Under the pieces are notes generated by a model. That model did no database searches, had not been told where the DNA came from, and saw only the letters and a program-made list of their open reading frames with translations. The translations under genes and the position numbers were made by a program. Shown here one piece after another: positions 3,120 through 32,955 of a stretch of DNA of 54,971 bases (the stretch's first letter is position 1; every line of letters begins with the position of its first letter). The DNA comes from Frankia sp. R82. Lineage in GTDB: Bacteria > Actinomycetota > Actinomycetes > Frankiales > Frankiaceae. Location: the NCBI RefSeq assembly GCF_023716925.1, contig NZ_JAMQQG010000282.1:1-54971 (forward strand), in the 5' to 3' direction.

Positions 3120-3970
3120 TGTGGCTCGCTCATGCGGCCGGCAGCCGGGGCGTACAGGTCGGGGCGGCGTTCGGCGAGGTGGTGCAGGACGAGACGGGCG
3201 CGGTCGATCTCGGCGTCGACGTCCAGTTCGGCGACGGCGAGGCCACCCTTGGCCCAGGTGCGGGCGAGGATGTCGCCGCCGGGGCCGACCACCTTGGCCT
3301 GACCGAAGAAGTTCAGGCCGCCCATCGTGCCGGTCTGGTTCGACGACAGCCAGACGATCTGGTTCTCCGCGGCCCGGGCGCAGTCGTACAGGTCGAACAG
3401 GCGGGCCTGCCGGTCGGCGGTGAGCCGTTCGGCGCGCCGGGTGAGGCTCGCGGGCCAGGCGGACAGGCAGGCGACAACGCGCGCGCCGTCGAGCGCCAGG
3501 GTGCGGGCGGCCTCGGGGAACGTCTTGTCGTAGTCGATGAGCATGCCGATCCGGCCGAGCGGGGTGTCGAAGGCGGCGATGCGCTCGCCGGCGGCGTACA
3601 CGAGGGCCTCACCCGGCGGCTGGTGCACCTTGCGGTAGTGGCCGAGCACCCCGTCGCCGTGGACGCACACCGCAGAGTTCCATCGGCGGTCACCCGCGAG
3701 TTCGGTGAAGCCGACGCAGACCAGCAGGTCACCGGCCATCGCCGCGACCCGCCGTAGCTGTGGGCCGGCGGCGTCCACCGCGGGTGGCAGCGCGTCCGGG
3801 TCGGGGGAGCGCAGGTCGGCGAGATAGCCGCCGAGGGCACCGCCGGGCAGGACGACCATCGCCGCATCGGCCCGGCGCGCCGCGTCGATGATCGAACTGA
3901 TCCGGTCCAGCGATCGGTCGAGGTCCCGGCCGAAGTGGGCGCCCGCGGCGGCGAGACGCAGCACCGTCAT
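3116..3970 (-). CDS. Nitrilase-fold paralogue lacking catalytic Glu and Cys (probable pseudoenzyme)
   Basis: 284 residues, a full-length carbon-nitrogen hydrolase fold that closely parallels the intact nitrilase two genes upstream. In that gene the Glu motif is LPEAALGGY; here it is LPGGALGGY, so the catalytic Glu is Gly43. The catalytic Lys is kept (K114 in YRKVHQP), as is the second structural Glu (E121). The nucleophile motif LICYDK is LIDYDK here, so Cys is Asp146. Both changes are clear in the DNA and need more than one substitution event. The frame is intact, the codon use is normal, and both ends are coupled by 4-base overlaps (ATGA with the flavoprotein gene, GTGA with the glycosyltransferase). 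It is therefore likely translated and selected. Probable role: a non-catalytic partner or scaffold, or a binding subunit in a mixed nitrilase oligomer. Confidence 0.88.
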   Translation of the reverse strand: MTVLRLAAAGAHFGRDLDRSLDRISSIIDAARRADAAMVVLPGGALGGYLADLRSPDPDALPPAVDAAGPQLRRVAAMAGDLLVCVGFTELAGDRRWNSAVCVHGDGVLGHYRKVHQPPGEALVYAAGERIAAFDTPLGRIGMLIDYDKTFPEAARTLALDGARVVACLSAWPASLTRRAERLTADRQARLFDLYDCARAAENQIVWLSSNQTGTMGGLNFFGQAKVVGPGGDILARTWAKGGLAVAELDVDAEIDRARLVLHHLAERRPDLYAPAAGRMSEPQ

Positions 3971-5349
3971 CGACACCCCGCCTGTGCCGCCCCCCGGACC
4001 GGTTCCACCGGTTGCGCCGACCCGCCGGACCGGTGCCGGGCGCCGATGCGTTCGGCCAGGTGGGCCGCGTCCTGGGCGAGGCCGGCGAACCGGCCCGAAC
4101 CCCAGGTGTGCAGCCAGGGCAGGCCGAGGAAGTACAGCCCGGGCACGGCGGTGACGCCGCGCAGGTGCTGCGGGTGGCCGGCGCCGTCGAACACGCCGGC
4201 GTGCAGCCAGCGGTAGTCCCGGGTGAACCCGGTCGCCCAGATCACGGCGGCGATGTCGTCGACGCCGAGCTGCGGCCCGGTGGACGACGGCGGATGCCAC
4301 ACCGGGACGTACCGGCTCGGGCCGACTGTCACGTCCAGGCCATGGGTGGCGATGTGCGTGTCGATCAGGCCGTTGATGCCGTTGTAGACCTCGTCGGCGG
4401 CGTCCAGGTTGGCCGGCAGGTCGGCGGCGAACCGGAACCGCCCAGCGGTGAGGTCGACGAGGCGGCCGTGCAGGATCATGCCGTCGCGGGCGAAGGCGCG
4501 CAGGTCGATGTCGCGCCCGCCGTCGCGTCCGGTGACGTAGTGGTTGGTGCGGTCCTGGGAGCGTTGCGCCAGCGGCCGGTCGGTGACGGGTTTGGCGTAG
4601 TGGCCGGTGTCGTGCATCCAGGCGATGACGTCCCGGCCGCGGTAGCGGCGGGCGAACCGCGGTGCGTTGCCGACGGCCAGGTGCACCTGGCGGCCGGCCA
4701 GGTGCAGGTCCTCGGCGATCTGCGCGCCGGACTGGCCGGTGCCGACGACCAGCACCGGCCCGGCGGGCAGCGCGTCCGGGTTGGTGTAGGTGGACGAGTG
4801 CAGCTGGGCGAGCCCGGCCGGGAGCCGTTCGGCCAGCCGGGGGATCGCCGGCACGTGGTAGCCGCCGGTGGCCACGACCACCTGATCGGCCACGATCTCC
4901 GACCCGGTGTCGGCATCGGTGGCGGGAGTGGCGGGGGTGGCGGTGCTGGCGGGGGTGGCGGTGTTGGCGGGGGTAGCGGTGTGCAGGATGAAGCCGCCGG
5001 CGGGGTCCTCGGCGCCGGGGCCGTCCCCGCGGGGGCGCAGCGAGGTGACGGCGGTGTGTTCGCGCACGGGTGGGGTGAAGCTCGCGCGGTAGCCGTCCAG
5101 CCACGCGAGGATCTGCGCGCGGACCATGAAGCCGTCCGGGTCGGGGCCGGCGTAGCCGTAGCCGGGCAGCTGGCACTGCCAGTTCGGGGTGACCAGGCAG
5201 AAGCTGTCCCAGCGGGCGTCGCGCCAGGTGTGCAGCGCGGTGTCGCGTTCCAACACGGCGTGCTCGATGTCCGCGGCGACCAGGTGCCAGCTCAGGGCAA
5301 GGCCGGCCTGGCCGCCACCGACGATGACGACCGGAAGATGTTCGCTCAC
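3967..5349 (-). CDS. Flavin-dependent oxidoreductase, MSMEG_0569 / NitH-like
   Basis: 460 residues. The FAD-binding GxGxxG (VVIVGGGQAGLA) is at residues 7-18, a second dinucleotide motif (VLVVGTGQSGAQIAEDL) lies mid-protein, and ATGFTRDYRWL is near residue 380. This is the layout of flavin-containing monooxygenases and their relatives. The likely reaction is NAD(P)H-dependent oxygenation of a nitrogen-containing intermediate. The GTG start overlaps the nitrilase stop as GTGA, and the 3' end overlaps the next gene as ATGA. Between roughly residues 118 and 147 a low-complexity insert of Ala-Thr-Pro repeats interrupts the domain just before the conserved VVATGGYH strand. It arises from an 18-bp tandem repeat and is probably a surface loop. 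An open frame continues upstream of the GTG, but it would overlap the whole nitrilase gene. Confidence 0.88.
   Translation of the reverse strand: MSEHLPVVIVGGGQAGLALSWHLVAADIEHAVLERDTALHTWRDARWDSFCLVTPNWQCQLPGYGYAGPDPDGFMVRAQILAWLDGYRASFTPPVREHTAVTSLRPRGDGPGAEDPAGGFILHTATPANTATPASTATPATPATDADTGSEIVADQVVVATGGYHVPAIPRLAERLPAGLAQLHSSTYTNPDALPAGPVLVVGTGQSGAQIAEDLHLAGRQVHLAVGNAPRFARRYRGRDVIAWMHDTGHYAKPVTDRPLAQRSQDRTNHYVTGRDGGRDIDLRAFARDGMILHGRLVDLTAGRFRFAADLPANLDAADEVYNGINGLIDTHIATHGLDVTVGPSRYVPVWHPPSSTGPQLGVDDIAAVIWATGFTRDYRWLHAGVFDGAGHPQHLRGVTAVPGLYFLGLPWLHTWGSGRFAGLAQDAAHLAERIGARHRSGGSAQPVEPVRGAAQAGCR
4919..4980. repeat. In-frame 18-bp minisatellite inside the flavoprotein gene
   Basis: About two full copies of an 18-bp unit (4935-4952, 4953-4970) plus partial copies on both sides. 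On the minus strand it encodes alternating Ala-Thr-Pro blocks. Because the unit is a multiple of three, the reading frame is preserved. Confidence 0.8.
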
Positions 5350-6239
5350 GGCTGGATCCGTCCCGCGGCGCCGGCCGGGTAGGTGTCGGGGCGCCGGTCG
5401 CGTAGGTGGAACATGCTGGCCCGGGCGGCCGAGAGCATGTCGGTCAGGTCGACGGTGGCGTAGGCGACGCCGGGGGCGGTGCCGGTAGTGGCCAGGATGT
5501 CGCCGCCGGCGTCGACGACCTTGGCGCTGGCCACGAAGCGCAGGGAGCCGAACGTGCCCGCCTGGTTGGCCGACACCCACAGCACCTGGTTCTCCAGCGC
5601 CCGGGCCCGGTCGAACAGGTCGAAGCGGCGGGTCCATCGGTCCTGGGCGAGGTCGGGAGTGGCGAACGTGCGCGCGGCCGGCCACGCCGACAGGCACGCG
5701 ACGATCTGCGCGCCGTCGACGGCCAGCGCGCGCGCCGCCTCCGGGAAGGCCTTGTCGTAGCAGATCAGCATGCCCAGGCGCCCCACCGGCGTGTCGAACG
5801 CGGCGAAACGGTCGCCGGCCCGGTACGATATGCCCTCGCCGAGCGGTTGGTGCACCTTGCGGTGGACGCCGAGCACCCCGTCGCCGTTGACGGCGACCGC
5901 GGTGTTGTACCGGGCCGCTCCATCGGACTCGCACAGGCCGGCGGCGACGACCATGTCCCCGGCCAGCGCGGCGAGCCGGCGCAGCTCCGGCCCGTCGAGA
6001 TCCAGCGCGGGTGGCAGCGCGGACGACTCGCCCCCGGAGCCGGCCTTGGCGCCAGGACCAGAGGCAGGGCCAGGGCGCTCGGTGTCGAGGGCGGTCAGGT
6101 AGCCGCCGAGGGCGGCCTCGGGCAGCACGACCAGGCTCGCGCCGCGGTCCCGCGCGGCGTCGAGCAGGGCTTCGATGCGGGCGAACGCCGCGGACAGGTC
6201 ACGTCCGAACTCGGCGGCCACCGCCGCAACCGTGATCAT
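5346..6239 (-). CDS. Nitrilase of the Nit1C cluster (Nit6803 type)
   Basis: 297 residues, the normal length for a CN-hydrolase. The catalytic triad is visible: Glu41 in VVLPEAALGGY, Lys128 in HRKVHQPLGE, Cys160 in GMLICYDKAFPEAAR. Glu135 is the second conserved Glu. The family converts nitriles (R-C#N) to acids and ammonia in the cytosol. The Nit1C clusters that carry it have been linked to nitrogen starvation and, in some bacteria, to growth on cyanide. The ATG overlaps the GNAT-AIRS stop (ATGA), and the stop overlaps the flavoprotein start. A Gly/Ser/Pro-rich insert at about residues 54-74 separates strands of the fold and looks like a species-specific loop. This is the only catalytically intact nitrilase in the operon. 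Confidence 0.93.
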   Translation of the reverse strand: MITVAAVAAEFGRDLSAAFARIEALLDAARDRGASLVVLPEAALGGYLTALDTERPGPASGPGAKAGSGGESSALPPALDLDGPELRRLAALAGDMVVAAGLCESDGAARYNTAVAVNGDGVLGVHRKVHQPLGEGISYRAGDRFAAFDTPVGRLGMLICYDKAFPEAARALAVDGAQIVACLSAWPAARTFATPDLAQDRWTRRFDLFDRARALENQVLWVSANQAGTFGSLRFVASAKVVDAGGDILATTGTAPGVAYATVDLTDMLSAARASMFHLRDRRPDTYPAGAAGRIQP

Positions 6240-7723
6240 GGATTTCCTCCTGCGGGGCGCACCGGACGGACCGGATGCACCGGGCGCACCGGATGGATCG
6301 GACGCCCCGGGCCGGCCGGGCCGAGGCCGGTGACGGCGCCGGGCACACCCTCGGTGACGTCACCGTCGGGCCAGCGCAGCGCCACCCCGGAGCCGGCGAC
6401 CAGGGCGCCGCAGACGGCGCTGATCGCCGGTCCGGCAGCGGCGACGCCACGGCCGGGCTCGTCGGCGGTGAGCATGGCGAAACCGGGAAAGCAGGACAGC
6501 CAGTCGGCCAGGCCCACCCCGGCGGGACGCGGCACGGCGGCCACGTCCAGCACCGCGGCGCAGCCGCTGGCCTCGGCGAGCATGCCGAGGGTGCCGACGA
6601 TGCCGGCCATGCTGACATCCTTCGCCGCGGCGGGGCCGGTGCGGGCGACGACGCTGGTCATCGCGGCCAGCTCCGCGGCCCGTCGGGTGCTGCTGGAGTC
6701 CCACTGGCGGCCGGTGTGCCCGCGCCGCCAGCCGCCACCGAGGTCGGCGGTCAGCGTCACGGCCTGGCCGGGTCGCCCACCGCCGGCCGGCACCGGGCGC
6801 GACGTCCGCCCCAGCGCCGTCACCGACAGCGCCGCCGGCACACCGAACTGGGTGTGCCCGCCGAGGACGGGCAGCCGGTAGGCGGCGGAGGCGGCCCGCA
6901 GCCCGGACAGCACCCGGGCGGCGAAGGAGGCATCCCGGGCGCCGAGCGCGTCGAGCAGCCCGACGGGTTCGGCCCCCATCGCCGCAAGATCGCCGGCGTT
7001 GACCAGCACCCCGCACCAGCCGGCCCATTCCGGGTCCCGCTCGACCAGCGACGGCACGATCGCGTCACAGGCGGCCACGAGATCACTGCCCGGCACGGGT
7101 GCGCCGTCGTCGCCGACAAACCCGTCCCCACCGGGACGCAGCTCACCGAGCAGCCCGCCCAGCGGCGCCTTCACCGCGGCCGCCTGCCGGGCGAGCCGGT
7201 CCACCGGCCAGCGCATCAGCACATGGGACCGGCCGGCGACGACCTGCGCTCGGATGGGCCGCCAGCCGAGCCGGGCGAACATCCGCGCCGGAGCCGGCTG
7301 CACGGTCGCCTCGAACCGCAGCACCCCGGCCTGCTCGGCGTGCGCGCAGGCCGCGCGTACCAGGGCCGCGCCCACCCCGGACGCCCGCCGCCGCGCCGAC
7401 CGGTCCACCGCCAGCCGGCTGCCGCGCCACCAGCCCAGATCGGCGTCGTCGGTGACATCGCCGTTACCGGTGACGCAGTGCAGGCGGACGCCGCCGAGCA
7501 GGAAACCGTCGCCGTCATGGGCGAGCAGGACGACCGTGCGCGGGTCGTCGTCGGCGTCGTCATGGTCGTTGCCGGTGAACAGGCCCTGCTCGGTGACGAA
7601 CACGTCGTGGCGCAGCCGCCGGTAGGCGGCCAGCGCCCGCGGGTCGTCCGCGGTGTCGATCGTCCACGCCCGGCGCCGGGTGTCCGGCGCCGGCACGCCG
7701 AGCAGGACGTCTCCCAGCGACAT
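6236..7723 (-). CDS. GNAT acetyltransferase - AIR synthase-like fusion (MSMEG_0567 / Sll0786-Sll0787 type)
   Basis: 495 residues. Residues ~10-165 form a GNAT domain (YRRLRHDVFVTEQGLF near the start; R-SA-RR-GVGAALVRAA as the acetyl-CoA loop). Residues ~170-470 form an AIR synthase/PurM-like domain (GDD, DAIVPSLV, VNAGDLAAMGAEPVGLLDAL, AAKDVSMAGIVGTLGMLAE). In other organisms these can be two genes (nitE, nitF). The GNAT part would acylate an amine; the PurM-like part suggests ATP-dependent activation or dehydration. The start is ATG 7723, overlapping the radical SAM stop as TGATG; an upstream in-frame ATG (7753) would lie inside that gene. The C-terminal tail is a repeat of VHP/VRP units outside the fold, coded by a short tandem repeat at about 6250-6300. 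Confidence 0.9.
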   Translation of the reverse strand: MSLGDVLLGVPAPDTRRRAWTIDTADDPRALAAYRRLRHDVFVTEQGLFTGNDHDDADDDPRTVVLLAHDGDGFLLGGVRLHCVTGNGDVTDDADLGWWRGSRLAVDRSARRRASGVGAALVRAACAHAEQAGVLRFEATVQPAPARMFARLGWRPIRAQVVAGRSHVLMRWPVDRLARQAAAVKAPLGGLLGELRPGGDGFVGDDGAPVPGSDLVAACDAIVPSLVERDPEWAGWCGVLVNAGDLAAMGAEPVGLLDALGARDASFAARVLSGLRAASAAYRLPVLGGHTQFGVPAALSVTALGRTSRPVPAGGGRPGQAVTLTADLGGGWRRGHTGRQWDSSSTRRAAELAAMTSVVARTGPAAAKDVSMAGIVGTLGMLAEASGCAAVLDVAAVPRPAGVGLADWLSCFPGFAMLTADEPGRGVAAAGPAISAVCGALVAGSGVALRWPDGDVTEGVPGAVTGLGPAGPGRPIHPVRPVHPVRPVRPAGGNP

Positions 7724-27778: not shown

Positions 27779-28189
27779 ATGGGGTTTCGAACAAAGCAGC
27801 GCCGGAGTTCACGGGCGCGGAATGCCACCCGCATCACCGCGGGCGCCGCGATGCTGGTCGCCGGCACCGGCCACCTGTCCTTCGCCCGGGAGACCTTTCA
27901 GGCCCAGGTCCCCGACTGGGTCCCCCTGGACAAGGACACCACCGTGCTCGCCTCCGGTGTCGTCGAGATCGCCCTGGGCGCGGCCCTGATCGGCCTGCCC
28001 CGCCAGCGTCAGTCCGTCGGGGCGATTCTTGCGGCCTTCCTGGTGGCCGTGTTCCCCGGCAACATCAGCCAGTACACCGGCCACCGTGACGGCTTCGGCC
28101 TCGACACGGACCGCAAACGTGCCGCCCGTCTGCTGTTCCAACCCCTGCTGGTGGCCGTCGCCTGGTGGTCGACCCGGGAGACCGCCTGA
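27779..28189 (+). CDS. DoxX-like small membrane protein
   Basis: 136 residues with about four hydrophobic helices: ITAGAAMLVAGTGHLSF, VLASGVVEIALGAALIGL, VGAILAAFLVAVFPG, LLFQPLLVAVAWW. The GxxHL-F and FPGNISQY motifs fit the DoxX/DUF417-like group, whose function is unknown. AAGGGAG lies eight bases upstream of ATG 27779. Its 3' 181 bases are antisense to the C-terminal coding end of the HupE-like gene. Confidence 0.75.
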   Translation: MGFRTKQRRSSRARNATRITAGAAMLVAGTGHLSFARETFQAQVPDWVPLDKDTTVLASGVVEIALGAALIGLPRQRQSVGAILAAFLVAVFPGNISQYTGHRDGFGLDTDRKRAARLLFQPLLVAVAWWSTRETA

Positions 28190-29646
28190 CAGGTCGACGG
28201 CCTCCCGGACGGTGCTGTGGCCAGGCGGGTGCCGGTGGCCGAACTTGCTCCTGGTTCGTCCCGGGTCACCGCGGCGGCGGGTTTTCCGGTCAGGTGTCCG
28301 GCCCGTCGGGCCAGCTCACAGAGGACTGCGACCACGGCGAGCCCGGCTGCCAGGATGAGCGGATGCTCGACGAGGAGCTCGCCGACCGGTTCGAGCGGAT
28401 CACCGGGCATCAGACCGGACCGTTGCGCGAACCAGGCCGCCGCGAGGACCGCCCCGAGCAGCGCGACCGCGATCCGCAGCACCGGGTGGACGACGGTACG
28501 ACTGATCAAGATCAGTGACGGCATCACCAGGGCCACGACGACCAGCTGGGTGATCTCGATGCCGAGGTTGAACCCGAGCAGGGTCGTGAGCAGACTCCCG
28601 CGGCCGAGGTCGAGCGCGCCCAGCAGCGCGGCGAACGCCAATCCGTGCAGCAGGCCGAACGTGACAGCGATCAGTACCTCGCCCCGGCGTACCAGGGGAC
28701 GCACGGCGTGGACGGCCGAGACCAGGACGGACAGGGCGATACCGCTCTCGACGAGGCGGGCGGGCAGCCGCACCCAGCCCAGCGCGCCAAGCGCCAGGGT
28801 GATGGAGTGGCCGACGGCAAACGCCGTGACCACGTGCAGGACGCGCCAGCCCGCGCGCCCGAGATCCGGCCGGCTCGCCCACCGACGCTCCACGGCGGCC
28901 AGGGGGGCGGGCAGCAGCAGCATGAGCAGGAACAGCAGGTGATCACTGCCCCCGCTGATGTGCTCGACACCGAGGTGGACCGCGGACACGAAGCCCTGGC
29001 TCCCGGACGCCGGAGCCGCCGTCGTCGAGGCTGTGCTCGTCGAGGTTGTGCTCGTCGACGGCAGGGCCGCGATCGGCACCGACTGGGTCTGCCAGGACAG
29101 CATCGCCACCGTGGTGTACCGGCCCGTGCTCCCGTACCGGGCCGAGACGAACACCCGGTGCGAGACGAGCCTGTCCACGACGGCGTCGTAGTGGAGCACG
29201 AAGTCCCCCACCGGGCCCGAGCCGGGCGTCAGGGTGGCGTCGAGGACGAGGTTGTCCGCACCGTCGATCGACGTGACCCGGCCGCCGGCGACGCGGGTCA
29301 CCCACGTCCGGCCGGTCGAGTCCGTCGCCGACAGGTCGCCCTGCACATAGGCCCGCAGCGCGGACACCGTCGCGGCGTCGAGCACGTCGGCCGCGGTGAA
29401 CGGCCTGTCCATCGCGATGCCGAGCTGGTCCAGGGGCAGGTCGACGGTCGCGGTGACGGTGCGTTCGCCGACGTCCAGCCGGACCACCGAGGTACTGAGC
29501 GGATGCGCCGAGGCCCCCGGTGCGAACGCGAGGATCGCGCCGAGCACGACACAGACCACGACCACGGGGCCGGCGAGGAAACCCGGGACCTGCCGGAGGC
29601 AGGTCAGCACGAGGCCCGCCCCCGGTCGTGGCAGCTGGTCACGCAC
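28009..29646 (-). CDS. HupE/UreJ family membrane protein with N-terminal extracytoplasmic domain
   Basis: 545 residues. A signal peptide/helix is followed by SAHPLSTSVVRLDV, an extracytoplasmic beta domain of about 170 residues and a Ser/Thr linker. The HupE core then begins with HLGVEHISGGSDHLLFLLMLL, followed by GHSITLALGALG, TFGLLHGLAFAALLG and LGFNLGIEITQL, about seven helices in all. HupE/UreJ proteins are implicated in nickel/cobalt uptake. The GTG start overlaps the stop of the DUF3500 lipoprotein gene by 8 bases. The last ~60 residues are Arg/Ser-rich, lack family features and are antisense to the DoxX-like gene, suggesting that an ancestral stop codon was lost. Confidence 0.82.
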   Translation of the reverse strand: MRDQLPRPGAGLVLTCLRQVPGFLAGPVVVVCVVLGAILAFAPGASAHPLSTSVVRLDVGERTVTATVDLPLDQLGIAMDRPFTAADVLDAATVSALRAYVQGDLSATDSTGRTWVTRVAGGRVTSIDGADNLVLDATLTPGSGPVGDFVLHYDAVVDRLVSHRVFVSARYGSTGRYTTVAMLSWQTQSVPIAALPSTSTTSTSTASTTAAPASGSQGFVSAVHLGVEHISGGSDHLLFLLMLLLPAPLAAVERRWASRPDLGRAGWRVLHVVTAFAVGHSITLALGALGWVRLPARLVESGIALSVLVSAVHAVRPLVRRGEVLIAVTFGLLHGLAFAALLGALDLGRGSLLTTLLGFNLGIEITQLVVVALVMPSLILISRTVVHPVLRIAVALLGAVLAAAWFAQRSGLMPGDPLEPVGELLVEHPLILAAGLAVVAVLCELARRAGHLTGKPAAAVTRDEPGASSATGTRLATAPSGRPSTCQAVSRVDHQATATSRGWNSRRAARLRSVSRPKPSRWPVYWLMLPGNTATRKAARIAPTD

Positions 29647-30832
29647 TTGGGTTGGTGCTGCCGTAGTCGTCGTTCTTGTCCCGGTAAACGCCGTGATAGT
29701 GGACGTTCGGGGTGCTCCGGCTGCGGGTGTTGACGAGCTCGATCCACACCCGTGGCCCGTCGATACGCAGGTAGGTGCTCTCGCCGTCGACGGTGTCGCT
29801 GTTGGCGAACGCGACGCGGGTCTGGCTGAGCTGGGCCGTGTAGGTCTTCATCAGCGAAGCGGCGACGTCGGGGGAGGCGTCGCCGACCCAGGCTCTGATC
29901 GCGTCGAGGACGAGGCTCTGCTGCTGCGCGGAAAGGTCGGCCACGGCCACGCCCTGGGTCGCGGGGAACTTCCCGCTGTCCACGCCCGGGCCCATCAGGA
30001 TGTCGTCGATGGTGCCGGACAGTTTGGCCTTCGCCTCCTGGTCGTCAGTGAGAGAGTCGAAGACGTCGAACAGCGTGCCGGCCTTCTCCTTCATCGGCTC
30101 CACGGCGGTGTTGCCGATCGTGAAGGACTTCGGCTCGGTGCCGGTGAAGTCCGGTGTGATGCTGGCGGTGGTGCCCTTGTAGGTGTAATTACGGGCCAGG
30201 TGGTGGCCGCCGAACTGGACCATGAACGAGCCGGTTGTCGAGGGTTTGCCGTAGATCGCGATGTAGTAGTCGGAGTCGGAGCCGAAGCTGTCGGTGCCGG
30301 AAGCGCTGTTTGCCCTGAGCCAGTCATCGGCCTGCTGGATCGTCTGCACCTGGGCGTAGCCCGCCGGGCTCAGCATGGTTTTCACCAGGGCCATCGCGGC
30401 GGCCTTGGCGTCGTCGTCGAGGTCGGAGAGCGCGACGCCCTTGCGTGGCACCTGCTGGGCCGGATAGTTCGACCAGGTCTGGCGGGACACGTTGTCGGTG
30501 AAGGCGTAGTTGACCTTTCCTGCGGTGCTCGTGTCCAGGGTGGCGAGAAACGCGGTGGCCGCGGTCACGACGGCGGTGGTGTTCGCGCCCGAGGCGTTCG
30601 CGCCGTCGGTGTCGAGGTCGACGGCGGTGAAGGTCTGCAGACCACCGCCTGCCCCACCGCCGCCCGGGCCGCCGCCGGCAAACCCGCTCGACGAGCTCGA
30701 GGGGGCAGCGGCCGAGGCCGAGGCCGTGGACGAGCTGGTGTCGGCATCGGAGTCGCTGCTACAGGCCGTGACCGTGGAAAACAGTGCTGCCGCTGCGATC
30801 GGCGCGACAATGGTGCGGCGAATCTTGGTCAA
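29639..30832 (-). CDS. DUF3500 domain lipoprotein
   Basis: About 397 residues. The signal peptide ends in a lipobox (FSTVTAC), followed by a Ser/Ala/Gly linker. The domain shows WSNYPAQQVPRKGVALSDLD, MVQFGGHHLARNYTYKG and SITPDFTGTEPKSF, the hallmark blocks of DUF3500, a secreted family of unknown function. The C-terminus has RIDGPRVWIELVN and NVHYHGVYRD with clustered His, possibly metal-binding. The start is uncertain: TTG 30832 is nearest the signal peptide, and GTG 30871 is also in frame. It is translationally coupled to the HupE-like gene, suggesting a surface lipoprotein that works with the transporter, perhaps in metal acquisition (inference). Confidence 0.78.
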   Translation of the reverse strand: MTKIRRTIVAPIAAAALFSTVTACSSDSDADTSSSTASASAAAPSSSSSGFAGGGPGGGGAGGGLQTFTAVDLDTDGANASGANTTAVVTAATAFLATLDTSTAGKVNYAFTDNVSRQTWSNYPAQQVPRKGVALSDLDDDAKAAAMALVKTMLSPAGYAQVQTIQQADDWLRANSASGTDSFGSDSDYYIAIYGKPSTTGSFMVQFGGHHLARNYTYKGTTASITPDFTGTEPKSFTIGNTAVEPMKEKAGTLFDVFDSLTDDQEAKAKLSGTIDDILMGPGVDSGKFPATQGVAVADLSAQQQSLVLDAIRAWVGDASPDVAASLMKTYTAQLSQTRVAFANSDTVDGESTYLRIDGPRVWIELVNTRSRSTPNVHYHGVYRDKNDDYGSTNPSA

Positions 30833-31165
30833 GGATCTGTCCGTTCCGTGGTGAGGAAGTCCGACATTCACCGGACAGGCTGCCGGGTATGTCCGGAACA
30901 GTGTCCGATCCGGCTGTGGGTCCGCTGTGGCTTTGCTATGGGTCTTCCGGGTGTCGAAGTGGCCGGACCCGCGCGGTCTCCGTCCGGCGTTTCGGCAGAT
31001 GTGCCGCCCCGGCGCTGTCCCGGTCTGCGCCGAGCGGGACGGAACCACGATGCACCGGGCGGTATCGGTGGCCTCGCGACCGAGGTTTTCGTCGACTCGT
31101 TGATGGCGGCCGGTTTGTCGGGTGGTGGGCGACCAGAACACGACAGCAGGAGGACAAAGCGGCGA
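30833..31165. other. Divergent spacer between DUF3500 and DUF692 genes
   Basis: No gene is supported. An inverted repeat CCGGACA (30871-30877) / TGTCCGG (30890-30896) lies just upstream of the lipoprotein gene and could be an operator. I see no clear promoter hexamers for the DUF692 gene. Confidence 0.4.
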
Positions 31166-32032
31166 GTGCCCTGTGACGATCGTGGTGTGACGGGGGTGAG
31201 CGGGTTCGGGGTGGGGTGGCGACCGGAACTCGCCGCACTGCTCGCCAGGCGTATCGGGCTCGGGTTCGTCGAGGTGATCGCGGAGAACATCGGGCTCGAC
31301 GGGCGCGCCCTTTCAGCGCCGGGGCCGGGGCCGGTCGAGGTGGGCGTGCCGGTGGTGGTGCACGGGATCGGACTGTCGCTCGGCGGGGCGGAGAGTCCCG
31401 ACCCGGCCAGGCTGCGTCGGCTGGCGGATGTTGCCGGGGTTGTGGGTGCGCCGCTGGTCAGCGAGCATGTCGCGTTCGTACGCGCGGATGGGTATGAGGC
31501 AGGCCAGCTACTGCCGGTTCCCTATACCCGTGACGCGCTGGATGTGCTGGTGGCCAACGTCAGGATTGCCTGTGCCGAGCTGCCGGTTCCGCTGGCGTTG
31601 GAGAATCCGGCCGCTTTGCTGCGCTGGCCGGACGACGACCTGGCCCCCGCCGATTTTCTTGTCGAGTTGACGGAGCGGACCGAGGCGCTGCTGCTTGTCG
31701 ATGTCTCGAACTTCCACGGCGACACGGTCAACCACGGTCTTGATCCGGCTGCGGCGTTCGACCGGCTGCCGTGGGAAAGAGTCGCCTATCTGCATGTCGC
31801 TGGTGGGGTGATACGCGAGGGCCGGTATCACGACACCCATCTACATCCGGTCGGGCCGCGGCAGCTGGAGCTGTTGGCTGATGCTGTAGGGCGGTTTCCG
31901 CCGGGCCGGGCCGCCTATCTCCTCGAACGCGATGGCTGCTATCCCCCGGCCGCGGAGTTCCACGCTGAGTGTGACCGTGTCCAGGGCGCCGCGGCCAGCG
32001 CAGAAAGGCAGCTGCCATGCCAACATCGGTGA
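31166..32032 (+). CDS. DUF692 family multinuclear non-heme iron-dependent oxidase (MNIO: MbnB/TglH/ChrH-like)
   Basis: 288 residues, a TIM-barrel enzyme. Conserved metal-site blocks are present in order: VVHGIGLSLGG, VSEHVAFVR, LALENPAALL, LLLVDVSNFHGDTVNHG, VAYLHVAGG, HDTHLHPV. Known MNIOs (MbnB, TglH, ChrH) oxidise Cys or other residues of ribosomal peptides using a di- or tri-iron centre and usually need a partner protein. GTG 31166 has AGGAGG 12 bases upstream; GTG 31187 is the alternative. The protein ends right after the barrel, without the C-terminal partner domain that I recall from Streptomyces relatives. The 3' end overlaps the Cys/Gly-rich membrane protein gene by 16 bases. Confidence 0.9.
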   Translation: MPCDDRGVTGVSGFGVGWRPELAALLARRIGLGFVEVIAENIGLDGRALSAPGPGPVEVGVPVVVHGIGLSLGGAESPDPARLRRLADVAGVVGAPLVSEHVAFVRADGYEAGQLLPVPYTRDALDVLVANVRIACAELPVPLALENPAALLRWPDDDLAPADFLVELTERTEALLLVDVSNFHGDTVNHGLDPAAAFDRLPWERVAYLHVAGGVIREGRYHDTHLHPVGPRQLELLADAVGRFPPGRAAYLLERDGCYPPAAEFHAECDRVQGAAASAERQLPCQHR

Positions 32033-32376
32033 AGATCGTGCTGCTGGTCGGCTGCCTGCTGCTCGCAGCGGTGTTCCTTCTGGCGAGAAGGCTCTCCAGC
32101 CGCCTCTTCGTCGGCCGGTGGCGTAACGGGGGGCGTCCTGGTGGTTCCCGTTCCGGCGGGTGCGGCGGCGGCGACATCGGCGGCTACGGCGGTGGGTCCG
32201 ACAGCGGTGGTCACGGTGGCGGATGCGGGGGAGGAGGCCATGGTGGCGGATGCGGCGGGGGCGGCGGATGCGGCGGAGGTGGCGGATGCGGGGGAGGAGG
32301 CCATGGCGGCGGATGCGGCGGAGGCGGCGGGGGTGGGGGATGCGGCGGGGGTGGCGGATGCGGCGGAGGTTCCTGA
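32017..32376 (+). CDS. Small membrane protein with Cys/Gly-rich tail (candidate MNIO substrate)
   Basis: 119 residues. One membrane helix lies at ~5-25 (IVLLVGCLLLAAVFLL), then a short Arg-rich stretch, then a ~70-residue tail made almost only of Gly with eight Cys (49, 70, 79, 85, 91, 100, 109, 115) and three His, each in HGGGC (66, 75, 96). From Cys70 on, the Cys spacings are all 6 or 9. AAAGG precedes the ATG. It resembles the Cys/Gly-rich ends of actinobacterial TIGR04222-type membrane proteins that neighbour DUF692 genes, as I recall them, but here almost the whole preceding domain is absent. The tail probably faces outward or binds metal; modification of its Cys by the overlapping DUF692 enzyme is inferred. 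Confidence 0.75.
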   Translation: MPTSVKIVLLVGCLLLAAVFLLARRLSSRLFVGRWRNGGRPGGSRSGGCGGGDIGGYGGGSDSGGHGGGCGGGGHGGGCGGGGGCGGGGGCGGGGHGGGCGGGGGGGGCGGGGGCGGGS

Positions 32377-32839
32377 CCAGGCCGGCCGCCGGGTCGGCCT
32401 GGCTGTGCCGGTGGATCTGGAGCCGGTGCGGGCGCGGCTGGCCGCCGGGCAGTCCGCGTTGCTCGCGGCGTTGGTCGCCGGTGGTGCCGATCCGGAGGGT
32501 TTCGACCAGGATGCGTTGGCAGCGACCCGGTACGCGCTGCTCGACAAACGCAGGGCCCGGGTCGCACATCGCTGGCCGACGCTGGCGGCCGAGCCGGAAT
32601 TCACCGCCAGATTCCTGTCCTGGGCTGCTGGCCGGCCTCCCGCCGGCGCCCACGCCGACGGCTTGGGTTTCGGGGACGCGTACCGCGATGAGCTGTCCGA
32701 GGACGCCCGGGTCGAGCTGCTGCGCGCCCGCTGCGCGCGGCGCCGGCTGGCAGTACTGGCCGACCGCACCGCCAACGGTGCGCTGCTCGCGCTACGCGCC
32801 CCCGGCCTGGGAATCGTCATCCTGCGCACCCCGCGATGA
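32303..32839 (+). CDS. SCO6045 C-domain-like protein, probable DUF692 partner
   Basis: About 178 residues. The recognisable domain starts near VDLEPVRARLAAGQSALLAAL and contains ALLDKRRARVAHRWP, FTARFLSWAAGRPP and DAYRDELSEDARVELL. As I recall, this helical domain is fused to the C-terminus of DUF692 in Streptomyces proteins; here it is a separate gene. It is a likely substrate-binding partner, like MbnC or TglI in other MNIO systems (inference). The start is uncertain: ATG 32303 (with GGAGG just upstream) and ATG 32240 both lie inside the Cys/Gly gene in another frame, and the first ~25 residues would be Ala/Asp-rich. Confidence 0.65.
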   Translation: MAADAAEAAGVGDAAGVADAAEVPDQAGRRVGLAVPVDLEPVRARLAAGQSALLAALVAGGADPEGFDQDALAATRYALLDKRRARVAHRWPTLAAEPEFTARFLSWAAGRPPAGAHADGLGFGDAYRDELSEDARVELLRARCARRRLAVLADRTANGALLALRAPGLGIVILRTPR

Positions 32840-32955
32840 GCCCTGCCAGCCGGTTGGACCTGCATGTGCGCGCCGCGCTGGCGGAGTTCGGATGGCTCGG
32901 GTGCGGCGGCGCCGGCCCGGATCCCGGACGCATGGCACCTGCCGCACTACGCTGA
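32836..32955 (+). CDS. Possible 39-aa protein at the end of the DUF692 operon
   Basis: The ATG overlaps the upstream stop as ATGA, the coupling mode used throughout this genome. The product starts MSPASRLDLHVRAALAEFGW, has one Cys in a Gly-rich C-terminal half, and resembles nothing I recognise. It could be a real small protein, a truncated remnant of the missing membrane-protein domain, or chance. Confidence 0.3.
   Translation: MSPASRLDLHVRAALAEFGWLGCGGAGPDPGRMAPAALR

Follow-up and report, generated by a model that had tools for sequence, protein, structure and literature searches.

MbnB-MbnC and TglH-TglI, two pairs of an MNIO (DUF692) enzyme and its partner protein, act on peptides without a membrane anchor. 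Captophorins and bufferins are Cys-rich precursors accompanied by an MNIO and a PME-type 1 partner, with the enzyme acting on Cys residues, often within Cys-Gly. Signal peptides are absent from methanobactin and pearlin precursors (PMC12452194). The characterised MNIO FonB prefers Cys-Gly; of the substrates tested, it failed on those in which a charged residue follows Cys, yet accepted one with Cys-Tyr (PMC13097082). Closest to the locus described here are TIGR04222 membrane proteins with Cys tails encoded beside MNIOs, published as a prediction, mostly from Actinomycetota, with the tails placed in the periplasm; partners were predicted in at least 10% of TIGR04222 clusters, and many clusters with both TIGR04222 and MNIO seem to be partnerless (PMC12452194). 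Our literature search on MNIO systems with membrane carriers found this prediction and no experiment, and a search for reports linking MNIOs with Frankia found none.

Here we analysed a window of 54,971 nucleotides, the whole of contig NZ_JAMQQG010000282.1 from Frankia sp. R82, in which a three-gene cassette shares with TIGR04222-MNIO(-PME-type 2) loci an MNIO, a probable PME-type-2-like partner and a membrane protein with a Cys-containing Gly/Ser C-terminal tail, but differs in that its carrier has 119 aa, a single helix and no TIGR04222 match, and in its gene order of MNIO, carrier, partner. It resembles the captophorin and bufferin systems in the predicted action of an MNIO, with a partner, on Cys (often Cys-Gly) of a Cys-rich substrate, and departs from them in a partner without a DUF2063 match and in a substrate with a helix followed by basic residues and, by inspection, no evident cleavable signal peptide; its likeness to MbnB-MbnC and TglH-TglI lies in the enzyme, which finds TglH by sequence in the PDB, and in the partner, whose structural model best matches, at low scores, chains of the MbnABC and TglHI complexes. 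New here is the minimal one-helix carrier set between MNIO and partner, the pairing of an MNIO with a Cys-tailed membrane protein having already been published as a prediction (PMC12452194). A first-pass annotation of this DNA had regarded a membrane-kept product as unlike the known family members, a view that gives way to the membrane-anchored MNIO substrate already proposed for TIGR04222 proteins in that source. On balance, we lean towards reading the trio as a minimal RiPP-like modification cassette, in which a tethered tail would be modified by MNIO and partner and would likely bind metal.

Gene content of the cassette

The features of the cassette, with the evidence for each, are as follows.

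31148..31153, + strand: AGGAGG, possible ribosome-binding site for the MNIO start at 31166 (direct reading)
31166..32032, + strand: MNIO (DUF692, PF05114) enzyme (PF05114 match and metal-site residues)
32017..32376, + strand: 119-aa one-helix protein with Cys/Gly tail, candidate substrate (third-position bias, in-frame length change relative to L010, counterparts)
32029..32085, + strand: transmembrane helix, residues 5-23 of the 119-aa protein (Kyte-Doolittle mean 2.9 over 19 residues)
32086..32160, + strand: basic stretch behind the helix, with 7 K/R and zero acidic residues in 25 (predicts N-out/C-in)
32161..32373, + strand: Cys/Gly tail with eight Cys-Gly dyads (pattern unique to the tail in the genome)
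32405..32839, + strand: probable MNIO partner (PME-type-2-like), 144 aa, start not certain (AlphaFold2 pLDDT 90, MbnABC/TglHI chain matches, MNIO fusions)

The first gene opens at GTG 31166, 12 nt downstream of AGGAGG, or at GTG 31187, with its stop at 32030-32032, and its product matches the Pfam family PF05114 (MbnB_TglH_ChrH) over its full length (229.9 bits against a cut-off of 25; residues 7-267 of 281), bearing out the complete DUF692 barrel recognised previously. Scores against the named NCBIfam subfamilies were all under their cut-offs, the best being BufB with 163.8 of 310, and a sequence search of the PDB gave two matches, the MNIOs 3bww and TglH (8hci_D). Counted from GTG 31187, residues H59, E139, D172, N175, H203, D216, H218 and E247 are conserved in 148-152 of the 154 alignment rows; we take H59, E139, D172, H203 and E247 to be metal-site residues. 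N175 is aligned with N175 of 3bww, and D216 and H218 are paired, by motif only, with D242 and H244 of HvfB (PMC13419390). Judged by its sequence, the protein is an enzyme with the expected metal-site residues, for which peptide oxidation is predicted. It is the sole MNIO found in a search of the 6.9-Mb genome, and is 95% identical to the MNIO of Candidatus Frankia nodulisporulans.

The second gene runs from ATG 32017 to a stop at 32374-32376, overlapping the MNIO gene by 16 bp. Of the nine Cys in its product, one lies in the helix and the others follow in the tail at spacings of 21, 9, 6, 6, 9, 9 and 6, all eight within a GG-C-GGG context; coordinates and spacings thus agree with the earlier description of a 16-bp overlap and a 119-aa protein in which a single membrane helix is joined to a tail with eight regularly spaced Cys. 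Searching the 6.9-Mb genome for the DNA pattern that encodes Cys-Gly5-Cys-Gly-Gly gave three occurrences, all inside this tail, and because the pattern is confined to a tail beside the genome's only MNIO, the tail does not look like a product of chance. Relative to a close relative (L010), the tail shows eight substitutions, seven of them at third codon positions, and one in-frame length difference of 60 bp, so that it looks like a translated, length-variable repeat; counterparts of the protein are present in Frankia and Pseudofrankia.

The 119-aa protein has one TIGR04222-type trait, a Cys/Gly/Ser C-terminal tail near an MNIO, but no match to the TIGR04222 model, which also found nothing in the whole Frankia genome, and a reading of the protein as a TIGR04222 remnant was rejected for want of such a match. 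A lipoprotein reading was likewise rejected by inspection: LVGC at residues 10-13 resembles what we take to be a lipobox motif, but its Cys lies within the helix and is missing from the helices of L011, L012 and L013.

The probable partner protein

The third gene likely starts at GTG 32405, a start that is not certain because the mechanical ORF opens at 32141, within and overlapping the tail, and it ends at 32839; of the segment 31166-32955 first delimited for this system, the three genes therefore stand and the right-hand end does not. The 232-aa ORF containing the gene had no match in Pfam or NCBIfam, nor any to DUF2063 (PME-type 1) up to E 0.1, and the gene's position after the MNIO, together with the missing DUF2063 match, is what characterises PME-type 2. 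Its AlphaFold2 model, built from 43 sequences, has a pLDDT of 90 and consists of helices and three C-terminal strands. Foldseek against the PDB returned no match reaching E 0.001, the best being 7dz9_C, a chain from the MbnABC complex (prob 0.98, E 0.023, TMq 0.42, rmsd 7.5), which we take as MbnC by chain letter and size. VIA-align 2 placed 8hi7_A (Z 6.1, rmsd 5.5, 134 aligned), 8hci_A (Z 5.8) and 7dz9_C (Z 4.2) on top and 7fc0_C, from another MbnABC complex, ninth (Z 3.4), so that four of the nine best rows are MNIO-complex chains, though these scores are low and the program warns that a Z under 8 may reflect a mere common arrangement. The first two are both TglHI chains A (268-269 aa), identified here with TglI since the DUF692 protein is chain D (304 aa). 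NGO1945 (3dee) was not among the rows shown by either program, and three matches from a PDB sequence search at E 0.002-0.04 (an ankyrin-repeat protein, TRI-05 and an engineered protein) were not used.

The domain recurs next to MNIOs elsewhere. Our survey comprised 154 loci with 140 distinct MNIO proteins, a mix of loci similar to the cassette MNIO and a class sample (97 of 393 genomes with an MNIO). The partner domain lies downstream of the MNIO in 124 of the 140 distinct loci, fused in frame in 44 (a count that includes a reading-frame check) and separate in 80, with 16 having none; the corresponding figures for the subset L001-L004 plus L055-L154 (104 loci) are 44 fused, 47 separate and 13 without the domain. 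This 124 of 140 has a different base from the at least 10% given in PMC12452194, which includes clusters without an MNIO. Fused loci include three genus-mates (L002-L004) and many from one genus, probably Streptomyces, as expected from the earlier remark that the third gene resembles a domain fused to DUF692 there. Together, the low-scoring MbnABC/TglHI matches of the model and the position of the domain, fused to or downstream of MNIOs, support the previous assignment of the third gene, which is probably an MNIO partner.

Linkage of Cys/Gly tails to MNIOs

Tails were called by at least 2 Cys and at least 16 Gly+Ser in the last 30 residues with few K/R, a rule set after the first tails had been seen. 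Within 2.5 kb of the MNIO, 94 of 140 loci have tail ORFs on its strand, 111 ORFs in all, and none of the 140 has one on the opposite strand; the tail-locus count is 95 (112 ORFs), or 94 once ORFs cut at the locus end are excluded. The remaining 45 loci have no tail by this rule, which misses some, L140 having Cys tails. Among the 124 loci with a partner, 31 have no tail, and 20 of these form a single clade of fused MNIO-partner genes from one genus, probably Streptomyces. The sole member of this clade that was scanned, L071, has no Cys tail even with a looser rule; its region 3147-6257 holds a gene with a weak Pth2 match (below cut-off), the MNIO-partner fusion and then a TIGR04222 protein. 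Linkage of the three genes, which the first-pass annotation had proposed to check by genome neighbourhood, is thus conserved without being universal, some lineages being without a Cys tail.

Across all 112 tails, Gly is the next residue after Cys in 482 of 594 cases, compared with 42% Gly among non-Cys tail residues; in the 21 Ser-rich tails it follows in 60 of 116 cases against 29% Gly, with Cys-Gly outnumbering Cys-Ser in 11, equalling it in 4 and falling below it in 6. The idea that the tail is the substrate gains genomic, not chemical, support from this bias and from the strand-specific linkage.

Within the genus, an MNIO match was obtained in 8 of 13 genomes, counting the one that holds the window; in G010 it consists of fragments only, and 5 genomes have none. 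Some copies are decaying: in L007/L154 about the first 105 positions of the MNIO could not be located and the tail region has a frameshift and no Cys, and L008/L054 hold an MNIO remnant. The cassette is dispensable.

Carriers of the tail

Most tails sit on larger proteins: 85 of the 112 tail ORFs were scanned and 75 match TIGR04222, those of L072 and L121 over the first part of the model only. One-helix carriers occur in ten loci, with the gene between MNIO and partner in eight and after the partner in L144 and L014. Individual scans of the one-helix carriers of L001, L011, L012, L013, L014, L124, L136, L144 and L146 (over-long mechanical ORFs for L013, L124, L136 and L144) gave no TIGR04222 match, and neither did that of L016, which has no helix; the tail is therefore common to different carriers. 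The L016 (2583-3938) and L025 (2562-3947) proteins, of about 450 aa, have Cys/Gly tails, no helix by hydropathy and no Pfam match (L025 having been scanned individually against Pfam only), and lie just upstream of a fused MNIO-partner gene.

Evolutionarily, the one-helix label needs four changes on an MNIO tree of 136 rows (a quick method, one run) and falls in three parts of it, namely a Frankia/Pseudofrankia group, the pair L144 and L146, and L014. The Frankia/Pseudofrankia group is nested in a same-family group with mostly multi-helix carriers; one locus inside it, L137, which is the sister of the one-helix L136, yields no tail gene under the above rule, and branching next to it is L140, with a TIGR04222 protein and two more ORFs with Cys-containing Gly-rich ends. 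Given these positions and the TIGR04222 protein of L140, larger carriers have probably given way to single helices on more than one occasion. For a model of a TIGR04222 protein (pLDDT 69.9), neither Foldseek (best E 3.9) nor VIA-align (best CorA, Z 6.7) brought up a convincing PDB structure, and the model was not used.

Topology of the tail

By the positive-inside rule, basic flanks of a membrane helix lie on the cytoplasmic side. With helices called by hydropathy and the side of the membrane read from the charge pattern, each of the ten one-helix carriers shows 4-8 K/R among the 25 residues behind the helix. In the 81 three-helix carriers, mean K/R is 1.46 before TM1, 3.40 after TM1, 3.00 before TM2, 0.54 in the TM2-3 loop (whose mean length of 7.4 residues is shorter than the 15-residue flanks used for the other counts) and 3.65 after TM3. 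K/R after TM1 exceeds that before it in 62 of 81 and the reverse holds in 9, and the flank after TM3 exceeds the TM2-3 loop in 74. This pattern, under the positive-inside rule, would place the tails in the cytoplasm, the compartment of MNIO and partner, so that the Cys/Gly tail of the cassette is predicted to be cytoplasmic and its helix N-out/C-in. The surface product envisaged in the first-pass annotation is not borne out by these charges, and the prediction disagrees with the periplasmic placement of TIGR04222 tails in PMC12452194.

Proposed function and alternative explanations

Functionally, MNIO and small helical partner would work as a complex in the cytoplasm and would oxidise Cys of the Cys-Gly tail on the one-helix protein, and the product could be a 5-thiooxazole or an oxazolone/thioamide, as in relatives. 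With the helix inserted N-out/C-in, as predicted, the modified tail would remain anchored to the cytoplasmic face of the cell membrane and, by analogy with captophorins and bufferins only, would most likely bind a soft metal such as Cu(I). The cassette would then amount to a reduced TIGR04222-MNIO-partner system with a bare helix instead of a multi-helix carrier, and our best guess at its function, drawn from the same analogy, is a membrane-tethered metal (copper?) buffer. More tentatively, and with some doubt, we suggest that Actinomycetota MNIO-partner complexes may turn Cys-Gly tails into metal-binding polymers kept on the inner membrane face, the tail being a portable module on TIGR04222 proteins, on bare helices that arose several times or on soluble proteins; if true, such a metallopolymer would stay inside the cell, tethered to the membrane, in contrast to the exported MNIO products. 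The cassette offers a three-gene, small-substrate model for the large MNIO group with membrane carriers, its 119-aa candidate substrate being easier to study than a multi-helix protein; it makes the published periplasmic-tail claim directly testable, and its partner domain may fill a gap in TIGR04222-MNIO loci counted as partnerless (both PMC12452194).

Three other readings were weighed, of which the most serious, though unlikely in our view, is that MNIO and partner modify another, unseen substrate, with the Cys tail left unmodified and serving as a thiol ligand for metal or as a redox buffer. The 20-locus clade of MNIO-partner fusions with no Cys tail nearby fits this reading, as does the one third of TIGR04222 genomes without an MNIO (PMC12452194), but it sits poorly with tail ORFs found on the MNIO strand in 94 loci and on the opposite strand in none, with the tail gene between MNIO and partner in eight of ten one-helix loci, and with the Cys-Gly bias of the tails. 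It is very hard to believe, on the other hand, that the 119-aa ORF is no gene and a by-product of a GC-rich repeat inside which the third ORF starts: the repeat is indeed open in other frames as well, and the third gene's ORF does open at 32141, yet seven of the eight tail substitutions relative to L010 fall at third positions of the tail frame, the 60-bp length change keeps that frame, and both Frankia and Pseudofrankia retain a helix with a basic stretch behind it.

Export of the tail, giving a surface or periplasmic metal binder as first annotated for this DNA and as published for TIGR04222, would be in line with the Sec signal peptides on most MNIO-modified precursors (PMC12452194). We nevertheless regard it as improbable in the face of the positive charges behind the helix in ten of ten one-helix carriers, the TM2-3 loop of three-helix carriers, which is poor in such charges, and the L016 and L025 proteins, which have the tail but no helix by hydropathy. 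Modification of a tethered, cytoplasmic tail is the reading we prefer.

Genomic neighbourhood

A scan of ten neighbouring genes revealed no evident metal gene. Divergent from the cassette, on the - strand at 28009-31141, lie genes for a membrane protein of the HupE/UreJ type (PF13795) and for a DUF3500 protein (PF12006), which may have a link to metals. L010 and L006 also have, next to their cassettes, an ORF that here runs antisense to the DUF3500 gene, so that this neighbourhood is shared. In the Pseudofrankia relatives (L011, L013, L136, L137 and L140) the cassette lies antisense beside pheT, identified by Pfam for L011 and by sequence likeness for the other four, at a conserved site; in L011 it also adjoins an argC-like gene.
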